Shown here piece after piece: positions 41,823-44,291 of a stretch of 45,946 nt of DNA (position 1 is the stretch's first letter; each line of letters starts with the position of its first letter). The DNA comes from a virus. A program made the position numbers and the translations under genes. The notes below the pieces were generated by a model. The model made no database searches. It worked only from the letters and a program-made list of their open reading frames with translations, and was not told the DNA's origin. Location: positions 1-45,946 of the IMG/VR virus record IMGVR_UViG_3300042516_001891; one strand, given 5' to 3'.

Positions 41823-42079
41823 AAAGGAAGACGAGCGCGTGAAGTTTTTTTCATAAAATTCAAATTAATCGCATCATTTTTAAGTTTTTCTTTAAGTGGT
41901 TTGGAAATTAGTTTTGTTACCGACTCCACTTCAAGACCATTAATTTCACAATAATGACAGATTCCATCGATATAATTCATATTCTCACTTGACACAATGT
42001 GCTCTATTTCTAGAGCAAACTTGGAAGGTGTAAGAAATTTATTTTCTATAACTTGCTCTAATTCTTTATTTGGTTCCAT
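41819..42079 (-). CDS. 33: Late transcription co-activator gp33
   Basis: 86 residues from the ATG at 42079; the longer frame to 42178 lies inside the exonuclease gene. NKFLTPSKFALEIEHIVSSENMNYIDGICHYCEINGLEVESVTKLIS then PLKEKLKNDAINLNFMKK are the gp33 pattern. T4 gp33 (112 residues) bridges host RNA polymerase and the gp45 sliding clamp for late transcription, consistent with the late-type promoters in this window. The C-terminus (TSRARLPL) differs from the acidic clamp-binding end in T4. Confidence 0.85.
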   Translation of the reverse strand: MEPNKELEQVIENKFLTPSKFALEIEHIVSSENMNYIDGICHYCEINGLEVESVTKLISKPLKEKLKNDAINLNFMKKTSRARLPL

Positions 42080-42746
42080 ATGATTCCAGTTTATCTCTAA
42101 CAAACTCTCTAATGTATTCGGTGAGTAGTTTGATGTACTTTGATTTGTCTCTTTCTTCATAGACGACGCATTCTCCATTTTCGCAAGCCATAATGATTAC
42201 AAGTTTTTTAACTGGGATACCAGTCAGTTCGTAAAGCATACAACCATATGCCATACATTGAACAAAATAATGTTCGATCCACTCGCGTGGTTTTGGTTTT
42301 TTAGAAGTCTTGAAGTCTATGATTGCTAACTCACCATCAAACTCTGCTATACAGTCAACAGTTCCAGCAATACCTAGTTGTTTACTGTATAGAGACCCCT
42401 CAAGGGCGTGAATATTATTTATACGATTGAGAGTTGACTTAGAAATCTTGAATAAGAACTCAGAAAGTGGTTGAACTTCTGGCAGATTCTCATTCTTAAG
42501 ATGATGTTCAACTAGCGTATGCATATCAGTGCCACGACTTGTTGCTTGTCGCGTAATTTTATCCGCTTCTTCTTCACCAACTCTTTTACGCCATTTAACA
42601 AATATCTGACGATTTTTATGACTGGTTACAGAAGTAATTGAAACAAGTCTAAGTAATTCTTCGGCATCAGGAACTTTGTAGTATCTTACCCCATCAATTG
42701 TTTCTCTCTCAAGTTGGGGTAACTTCAAATCAATATGATCAAACAT
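42066..42746 (-). CDS. PD-(D/E)XK exonuclease (RecB/MGME1-like)
   Basis: 226 residues. The core is visible: Glu116 (HALEGSLYSKQLGIAGTVDCIAEF), Asp131, and Asp144-x-Lys146 (LAIIDFKTSKK), then a helical Gln-containing end (YFVQCMAYGCMLYE, motif IV QxxxY-like). This arrangement is that of RecB/MGME1-type exonucleases often found beside gp33 and PhoH in cyanophages. Probable role in DNA recombination or host DNA breakdown. The GIY-YIG gene directly upstream overlaps its start by one base. Confidence 0.8.
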   Translation of the reverse strand: MFDHIDLKLPQLERETIDGVRYYKVPDAEELLRLVSITSVTSHKNRQIFVKWRKRVGEEEADKITRQATSRGTDMHTLVEHHLKNENLPEVQPLSEFLFKISKSTLNRINNIHALEGSLYSKQLGIAGTVDCIAEFDGELAIIDFKTSKKPKPREWIEHYFVQCMAYGCMLYELTGIPVKKLVIIMACENGECVVYEERDKSKYIKLLTEYIREFVRDKLESYGTK

Positions 42747-43471
42747 TAAGACCTCAATCTCCCTTTATTATAACCCATAGGTATACATTCGTCAATTGTT
42801 ATAAGTTTTTCTTCAATACCATTATTAATCCAAATTCTTTTTGGACGATTTTTTGCTTTTTGTTTTAATTTTTCTATAGTTTCTGGAGAATGTTTTTTTC
42901 CATACATAGGATTATTTTCCCCATTCACATCGTGATGATTTTCACTTATTTTTTTTCTAGTTTCTTCACTAGAAACTCTACCAAGATTTATTTGACGCAA
43001 TCTTTCAATAGTTTCTGGACTAAGTTTCCTACCAATTAACCAAGGTTTGGATTTTCCTTTAGATGCCTCACTCATTTTTCGTTTGGTATCATCACTATGC
43101 TTTTTACCATACATACCAACTTTTTTTTCTTTATGGAGTTGTTTAACTCTTTCGGAACATTCTTGTCGATATTCTTCGGTCACTTCCCAACCAAAAATTC
43201 CATCACCACCATCAGTTAAATTATATCCATTGGGGACTTTAGTATTATACTCTTTAATATAATACTGCTCCAATTCATATGCCCTTTCAGCACTCTCAAC
43301 TTCTTCAATCAAGTCAATGGAAAAATTTTGATAACCATATTTTTGAATTGCTTCAGTTAAAATGAATCCTCTTTTAATATGTTGGGAAAACCTTTCTTCA
43401 AGAGAAAATTTAGTTATCCCAACATATTTTTTTGTGTTTTCAGTATTGGTAATTAAATAAATTTTATACAT
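42746..43471 (-). CDS. GIY-YIG homing endonuclease with NUMOD3 repeats
   Basis: 241 residues. The GIY-YIG motifs are YKIYLITNTENTKKYVGIT (about 2-20), Arg27 in LEERFSQHI, and Glu at ELEQYYIKEYN with GYNLTDGG. From about residue 120 three NUMOD3 DNA-binding repeats follow (GKKHSDDTKRKMSEASKG, GRKLSPETIERLRQ, GKKHSPETIEKLKQKAKN). Inserted between phoH and the exonuclease, AT-rich, with an exact TATAAATA late promoter and a 15-bp inverted repeat before the start. It probably spreads by cutting the same region in related phages. Confidence 0.9.
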   Translation of the reverse strand: MYKIYLITNTENTKKYVGITKFSLEERFSQHIKRGFILTEAIQKYGYQNFSIDLIEEVESAERAYELEQYYIKEYNTKVPNGYNLTDGGDGIFGWEVTEEYRQECSERVKQLHKEKKVGMYGKKHSDDTKRKMSEASKGKSKPWLIGRKLSPETIERLRQINLGRVSSEETRKKISENHHDVNGENNPMYGKKHSPETIEKLKQKAKNRPKRIWINNGIEEKLITIDECIPMGYNKGRLRS

Positions 43472-43472
43472 T

Positions 43473-43528
43473 GTCTAACTCATAAAGGTTATAATTATTT
43501 ATAAAATTTAATTCTTTACGAGTTAGAC
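43473..43528 (-). promoter_or_regulatory. Late promoter inside a ribosome-site hairpin (RNA switch)
   Basis: On the minus strand a 15-nt inverted repeat, GTCTAACTCGTAAAG (43514-43528) and CTTTATGAGTTAGAC (43473-43487), has one mismatch and a 26-nt loop. The loop holds TATAAATA (43496-43503). The 3' arm ends 1 nt before the ATG and covers the ribosome-binding site. Read-through transcripts would fold and block translation; a late transcript starting near 43490 would lack the 5' arm. This is the T4 mechanism described for I-TevI and several late genes. Confidence 0.75.
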
Positions 43529-43535
43529 ATATTAT

Positions 43536-44291
43536 CTAAAGACCCAAAGTTTCTTTAGCAATAATAAACTCTCGAACTAAACCTGACCTAACAATATCAT
43601 CTACACCAAATTCAATAATATCAAAAGATGGCATGGTGCGTAAAATTTTCATAAAATCAATAACACCATTTTTTTCACTTGTTTTTATAAGGTCACTTTG
43701 AGTAGCATCTCCACAAAACATGATTTTACAATTTTCACCAACACGAGTAATAATAGAACATAATTCGTGGAAATTTGCGTTCTGGAACTCATCTACGATG
43801 ATAATAGCATTGTCAAGAGTTGTACCTCTCAGGAATGAGGTGCTCCAGAACTTAATGGTTTCTTGTGACTTGAGATTGCCATAAAGCATCTCAAACTCAG
43901 CATCGCTCGAAAGTTGAAACATATACTTTACCATATTCTTATAAGGAATCTGGTAAATGTCTGCCTTATCATCGTGACTTCCAGGCAAGAATCCAATTTC
44001 ACGAGTAGCAACTAATGAACGGACAATATAAACCTTTTCGTAAGGACTTCTTTCATTCAATACATCTTGAATAGCATTGTAAAGTGTGATAAAGGTCTTA
44101 CCAGTTCCAGCACAACCATAAGCAACCAGATGCTTTTGGTCTTTATATGAATCAAATAACTTTCTTTGATTATCAGTAAGAGGTTCAATATCTACAAGAT
44201 ATTCTGCACTCAGTGGTTTTTTGCGCTTCATTTGACGAGTAGTAAGACCAACCCCGATAGGTTGCTCTGCTCTTCTATTTCTTCTTGCCAT
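43536..44291 (-). CDS. phoH: PhoH-like ATPase
   Basis: 251 residues. LTDNQRKLFDSYKDQKHLVAYGCAGTGKTFITLYNA includes Walker A GCAGTGKT (59-66); Walker B is IIIVDE (163-168) in NAIIIVDEFQNA; RVGENCKIMFCGDATQSDL gives the GDxxQ motif. This is the PhoH P-loop family, a cyanophage marker gene often linked to phosphate stress, with roles in RNA metabolism or toxin-associated helicases proposed elsewhere. The start lies 1 nt after the stop of the gene upstream. It ends before the homing endonuclease insertion. Confidence 0.9.
   Translation of the reverse strand: MARRNRRAEQPIGVGLTTRQMKRKKPLSAEYLVDIEPLTDNQRKLFDSYKDQKHLVAYGCAGTGKTFITLYNAIQDVLNERSPYEKVYIVRSLVATREIGFLPGSHDDKADIYQIPYKNMVKYMFQLSSDAEFEMLYGNLKSQETIKFWSTSFLRGTTLDNAIIIVDEFQNANFHELCSIITRVGENCKIMFCGDATQSDLIKTSEKNGVIDFMKILRTMPSFDIIEFGVDDIVRSGLVREFIIAKETLGL

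Follow-up and report, generated by a model that had tools for sequence, protein, structure and literature searches.

The DNA analysed here (45,946 nucleotides, positions 1 to 45,946 of the IMG/VR virus record IMGVR_UViG_3300042516_001891; this whole stretch is referred to as the window) contains a free-standing homing endonuclease gene directly behind a phoH-like gene, and the question raised by this locus is whether the short leader between these two genes determines when the nuclease is made. An earlier note, based upon the sequence alone, had proposed that it does so by means of a T4-style RNA switch. The features of this region, all of which are on the minus strand, are as follows.

43536..44291, minus strand: phoH-like gene (PF02562, 3e-43), the upstream neighbour and presumed source of readthrough RNA
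43514..43529, minus strand: 5' arm of the leader hairpin, TGTCTAACTCGTAAAG, contained only in RNA that starts further upstream
43496..43503, minus strand: T4-type late promoter TATAAATA, an exact match within the hairpin loop
43490, minus strand: predicted late transcription start (+1), from T4 spacing
43472..43487, minus strand: 3' arm of the leader hairpin, CTTTATGAGTTAGACA, which adjoins the ATG and would be retained in late RNA
42746..43471, minus strand: intact homing endonuclease of 241 aa with GIY-YIG and NUMOD3 domains (Pfam, PHROG)
42066..42746, minus strand: PD-(D/E)XK exonuclease (PF12705), the downstream neighbour

The endonuclease is recognized by two Pfam families (PF01541, 1.1e-11; PF07460, 3e-24) and by PHROG 314, homing endonuclease (3.5e-46), and its residues Y5, G18, R27, E68, and N84 are invariant across the family to which it belongs. 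The exonuclease ATG overlaps its stop codon by 1 nt. In the freshwater cyanophage S-SRM01, which provides an empty site, the phoH and exonuclease genes share 1 nt, leaving neither a gap nor a hairpin between them, and the entire leader is thus part of the insertion. This leader is 64 nt long (ATG at 43471) and the 5' arm of its hairpin begins 6 nt past the phoH stop. The earlier note had correctly located an inverted repeat of 15 nt with one mismatch around an exact late promoter; in RNA this mismatch becomes a G-U pair and the stem gains an outer U-A pair, which brings it to 16 bp around a loop of 26 nt. The 3' arm ends at 43472, directly before the ATG. The sequence NATAAATA is the described cyanophage late promoter (PMC2984593). 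If +1 is placed by T4 spacing, six bases past the last A of TATAAATA, a start at 43490 would give a late leader of only 19 nt. Two other interpretations of the repeat were rejected: it does not represent the terminal inverted repeats of an element, as both arms are on the same side of the gene, nor does its 5' arm contain a conserved small ORF (AUGUCUAACUCGUAA), since several lineages have lost the start and stop. An Rfam search of the window identified a single tRNA and nothing else.

Based upon this arrangement and the comparisons described below, it is very probable that the leader serves as a lock that permits translation of this nuclease only late in infection. RNA reading in from phoH at early or middle times would contain both arms, and in such RNA the 16-bp hairpin would cover the region where ribosomes land, as far as the ATG, so that the nuclease would not be made. 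The late sigma factor (gp55), together with gp33, would then fire the TATAAATA promoter in the loop, and the resulting RNA, starting near 43490 and devoid of the 5' arm, would stay unfolded and be translated. Fold predictions, which had been suggested as a check of this proposal, agree with it: a folding energy of -27.2 kcal/mol is obtained for the readthrough RNA (z -5.4, with none of 200 shuffles equally stable), whereas the late RNA is essentially unfolded at -0.8. Across 30 distinct leaders, the unpaired fraction of positions -16 to +6 ranges from 0.06 to 0.34 in the long RNA and from 0.25 to 0.82 in the late RNA, and it is higher in the late RNA in all 30 of them. As the window is AT-rich and contains other perfect 16-bp hairpins (two on the minus strand and two on the plus strand, with G-U pairs and loops of up to 60 allowed), the length of the stem alone is not special. 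Its placement, however, is special: when the stretch preceding the promoter was dinucleotide-shuffled 4000 times, the hairpin score was never reached, and among the seven late-promoter/ORF pairs in the window the endonuclease leader ranks first, with a score of 35.5 compared with 15.5 for the next.

All tblastn matches to this endonuclease in isolated phages are of less than 60% identity, and its closer relatives were found in IMG/VR contigs (54 at 65–89% identity and eleven more at 64–84%). Wherever the upstream flank of these relatives is readable, the gene lies directly 3' of phoH, with the downstream gene being variable. More than 50 relatives have kept both the hairpin and the promoter in its loop, and no intact member whose leader is readable lacks them, although three are weak cases; TATAAATA is kept in nearly all relatives while the flanking loop bases vary. 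Two of the weak cases (L038 and L048) have a degraded promoter match, and in the third (L037) the start codon has changed from ATG to ATA and one stem pair has become a mismatch. The sole relative without the leader (L109) is a broken gene with a frame of 39 codons. The earlier note had held that loss of pairing in phages keeping the gene would speak against the switch; in these relatives the leader is absent only from the broken copy, and the member that has lost a stem pair is the one with the ATA start. Another phoH-linked relative (L112, around 2720–2795) has a hairpin of unrelated stem sequence around its promoter, and here, in the manner of T4, TATAAATA belongs to the 5' arm. The position of the hairpin just past the phoH stop would also suit a transcription terminator or mRNA-stability element serving mainly phoH. 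We regard this as extremely improbable, as the stem is not followed by a U-tract and a terminator scan makes no call there, the stem adjoins the endonuclease ATG across the relatives, the empty site in S-SRM01 is without a hairpin, and the leaderless copy is a broken gene.

The manner in which the hairpin would block initiation differs in one respect from that originally suggested. The ribosome-binding site had been claimed to be hidden, and the hairpin indeed covers the initiation region, in some members including the start codon itself, but a Shine-Dalgarno sequence is not evident: AGG or GGA was found at positions -19 to -4 in none of 37 family leaders and GAG in one lineage only. In the family the 5' arm starts a median of 5 nt after the phoH stop (range -4 to 16), and is thus sometimes inside phoH, where a terminating ribosome could reach it. 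There is hence a slim chance that the control is one of translational coupling, in which ribosomes finishing phoH melt the 5' arm and the timing of the endonuclease follows phoH and not the late promoter. However, the endonuclease start lies 49–66 nt beyond the phoH stop in the relatives, which is far for reinitiation; coupling also leaves the late promoter in the loop and the onset of pairing at about +1 (see below) unexplained, and other families carry the hairpin elsewhere, often with a terminator in its loop. Within the late-only lock that we favour, the closeness of the 5' arm to the phoH stop means that phoH-terminating ribosomes could partly open the hairpin.

A clear indication that this structure is maintained as a helix comes from paired substitutions in its two arms, which the earlier note had recommended looking for in related phages and which are abundant. 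When 13 core pairs were examined in 28 distinct leaders, pairing was found in 90% of the cells, and 53 cells show changes on both sides of a pair as compared with 21 ± 6 after shuffling (none of 500 shuffles reached the observed value), with a covariation score of 0.418 versus 0.230. Only 1–18 double-change cells are seen when the register is slid, and those in the true register occur at 8 of the 13 pairs. On both phoH and endonuclease trees, pairs 18/65 and 19/64 have switched between A-U/C-G and G-C/U-A 3–4 times each, and pairs 13/70, 15/68, 22/61, and 24/59 have each undergone five to eight changes. More weight is to be given to the slid register and the tree counts than to the shuffle count, since the rows share ancestry. 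The leader in the window belongs to an element that is conserved and covaries across these relatives.

Covariation of this kind could be a property of RNA or of a palindromic DNA site, and to compare these, stems were identified by Watson-Crick pairs only and the exceptions were then counted. In a second endonuclease family, consisting of the IMG/VR relatives of one S-SRM01 nuclease, the exceptions comprised 23 G-U and no A-C pairs on the coding strand (p 2e-7), and the pairing in this family therefore belongs to the coding-strand RNA; the window family shows the same trend weakly, with counts of 17 and 8 that are not significant alone (p 0.11). The extent of the pairing was also informative. 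In 77 leaders of the second family, with the register fixed, the promoter and spacer are paired in 5–73% of cases and the ten positions from the predicted +1 in 77–100% (at least 89% over the first nine or ten), and in the window family pairing is 86–100% once the fourth base of the late RNA is reached. The helix search accepted only 3' arms located downstream of +1, and the values on the right-hand side of this footprint could thereby be inflated; in the second family, however, the pairing is not continued inward in that register. A lock that has to vanish in late RNA would be expected to leave such a footprint, with its onset at about the predicted +1.

These results also bear on the possibility that the inverted repeat is a DNA operator, by which the endonuclease or some other protein represses its own late promoter. 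I-TevI is known to repress itself through an operator that overlaps its late promoter (PMC2988022), and in the window leader the palindrome likewise flanks the promoter. Nevertheless, such an operator is very improbable as the explanation of this repeat: the preference for G-U over A-C in the second family (the same preference in the window family not being significant by itself) is that of RNA, the stem sequences have diverged widely, among families as well as inside them, without loss of pairing, whereas a fixed protein site would not permit such divergence, and the pairing starts at about the predicted +1 and is not centred on the promoter. A DNA operator and an RNA lock are not mutually exclusive.

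To find similar leaders at other genes, complete genomes were scanned, blind to gene function, for NATAAATA with an ORF start within 60 nt and a helix linking the sequence upstream of +1 to the start. In the T4 control, I-TevI and SegB ranked first and second of 33 and lysozyme e also appeared; SegB is missing from a stricter scan because its stem runs beyond the start codon. In S-SRM01, the top ten of 62 late-promoter hairpins all precede endonuclease-like genes, seven of which are named endonuclease in RefSeq. Of the remaining three, gp152 and gp091 are called "hypothetical", the former sharing its family (by PHROG 15526) with the NUMOD3 protein gp075 and the latter having a weak match to a homing-endonuclease PHROG (E 0.002), whereas gp114 (62515–63273; L177:2815–3573) is named "translation initiation factor 2", yet contains six NUMOD3 motifs. 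As gp45 of phage B23 (L516:395–1018) bears the same name and matches homing-endonuclease PHROGs, this label appears to be a misannotation repeated across cyanophages. By RefSeq labels alone, 7 of 12 endonucleases and 3 of 50 other genes in S-SRM01 are above threshold (Fisher p 1.5e-4); counting gp152 and gp091, which were labelled endonucleases only after their hairpins had been seen, the numbers are 9 of 14 and 1 of 48 (p 9e-7). The nucleases concerned are of unrelated kinds, viz. GIY-YIG-like with NUMOD3, endonuclease VII-like HNH, and other HNH proteins, and three further S-SRM01 endonucleases have no late promoter.

The same arrangement was also observed in the relatives of these nucleases. 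In the second endonuclease family, 64 of the 66 distinct loci have the promoter and 56 have the hairpin (1.5 hairpins expected), and the relatives of the S-SRM01 endonuclease VII-like nuclease have it in 11 of 38 cases (0.1 expected); generic endonuclease VII relatives from other phages (L279–L345) yielded one promoter and no helices among 55. Both strong matches in the marine phage S-SKS1 are also endonucleases. In the marine phages P-SSM2 and S-PM2 and the freshwater S-CRM01 the scan showed no excess, with no strong case in the latter two, and the device was not found at the endonucleases of S-N03 and RN05-S. In B23 and S-B68 the fold is present with an intrinsic terminator in its loop, the promoter match of S-B68 being degenerate. 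This second type of leader, in which a terminator (e.g., AGGTGCTTTCGGGCACCTTTT) is located in the loop just upstream of TATAAATA, occurs in L176 (S-SRM01 48.5, 51.3, and 56.0 kb), L174 (18.0 kb), L183 (192.5 kb), L516, and L518, and readthrough RNA in these cases would be terminated as well as locked. Taken together, these observations make it likely that a lock with its promoter in the loop is a general device of free-standing homing endonucleases in cyanophages, either assembled repeatedly or captured as a cassette by at least three unrelated kinds of nuclease (GIY-YIG/NUMOD3, endonuclease VII-like HNH, and other HNH), that its stem varies freely, that several instances have an intrinsic terminator in the loop as an extra barrier, and that it is rare at the other late genes of these same phages.

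The early-off, late-on logic itself is known for I-TevI, I-TevII, I-TevIII, T4 segB, and Aeh1 mobE (PMC2988022, PMC3014915) and for the ordinary late genes e, soc, and 49 of T4 (PMC3014915), as the earlier note had stated for I-TevI and some T4 late genes. Its suggestion that a free-standing endonuclease was a new setting went too far, as both segB, which is also GIY-YIG, and mobE have already been described with this logic (PMC2988022, PMC3014915). I-TevI, of the T4 td intron, is likewise a GIY-YIG enzyme for which a hairpin in early/middle RNA blocks translation and the late promoter removes the 5' arm (PMC2988022, PMC3014915), but it is intron-encoded, has a consensus Shine-Dalgarno sequence in its stem, and in our fold its late promoter is itself within the 5' arm, whereas the window gene is free-standing, without a recognisable Shine-Dalgarno sequence, and has a promoter in the loop and a separate 5' arm. 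T4 SegB is likewise a free-standing GIY-YIG nuclease with a late promoter and a hairpin over its start, but its 5' arm is formed by the promoter CATAAATA, which pairs with the region of the ATG, its 3' arm contains the Shine-Dalgarno sequence AGGAG, and it is located in a tRNA region and not beside phoH. The T4 GIY-YIG endonucleases are only distantly related to the window protein (29–41% identity in the main matches), and with this identity and the differing leader anatomy no close kinship to I-TevI or SegB was found in protein and leader. The mobE gene is also free-standing, with a late promoter and a hairpin by which the ribosome-binding site is sequestered, as shown by Gibb and Edgell (2009, cited in PMC3014915); it differs in encoding an HNH nuclease inside nrdA. 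The T4 genes e, soc, and 49 are not homing endonucleases, in contrast to S-SRM01, where the strong hairpins are confined to endonucleases.

The window leader shares with the I-TevI/SegB/MobE kind a downstream homing endonuclease, a hairpin over the initiation region, and a promoter between the arms (its start being predicted), and as its stem contains no Shine-Dalgarno sequence it is regarded as a variant that works like this kind, being untypical in this respect; in the T4 review, sequestration of the Shine-Dalgarno sequence and/or the AUG is counted (PMC3014915). With the promoter in the loop and a separate upstream 5' arm, the stem is free to drift. What is new here is the promoter in the loop, the lack of a recognisable Shine-Dalgarno sequence, and the recurrence at unrelated endonucleases in the S-SRM01 top ten; no report of the device in cyanophages was found in the open-licence papers searched. 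The earlier note had left open whether the solution was kept or evolved again, and the anatomy unlike that of T4, together with the recurrence at unrelated nucleases with unrelated stems, favours repeated assembly over inheritance from T4. A regulatory principle so far described in a small number of T4-type phages of enterobacteria and Aeromonas is thereby extended to cyanophages, with evolutionary evidence from covariation and from loss of the leader along with the gene, and this suggests a strong and general selection for silencing a selfish nuclease until late, which has been met by different anatomies. In practical terms, a late-promoter hairpin provides a signature that flags endonucleases even when they are annotated as hypothetical or misnamed.

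The leader does not appear simply to travel with the nuclease. Leader identity is correlated more with that of phoH (r 0.65) than with that of the endonuclease body (r 0.32), and inheritance of leader and endonuclease as a single unit is thus unsupported. In several relatives (L030, L044, L047, L051, and others), endonuclease bodies that are about 90% identical are preceded by leaders and phoH ends of only about 70–84% identity, which suggests recombination inside the endonuclease gene with the leader staying with the flank.

Lastly, three additional observations were made. A second near-perfect inverted repeat of 16 nt (AATATGTTGGGAAAAC / GTTATCCCAACATATT, window 43376–43428) is present within the 5' part of the endonuclease coding sequence. 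The sequence TATAAATA also occurs within the exonuclease coding sequence (window 42416–42423, minus strand) and in the same place in S-SRM01 (L078:4091–4098); it is possibly a late promoter for gp33 or merely a set of conserved codons. In S-SRM01, an endonuclease gene at 207752–208447 splits psbA (gp320), and its leader hairpin has a score of 22, which is at the threshold.
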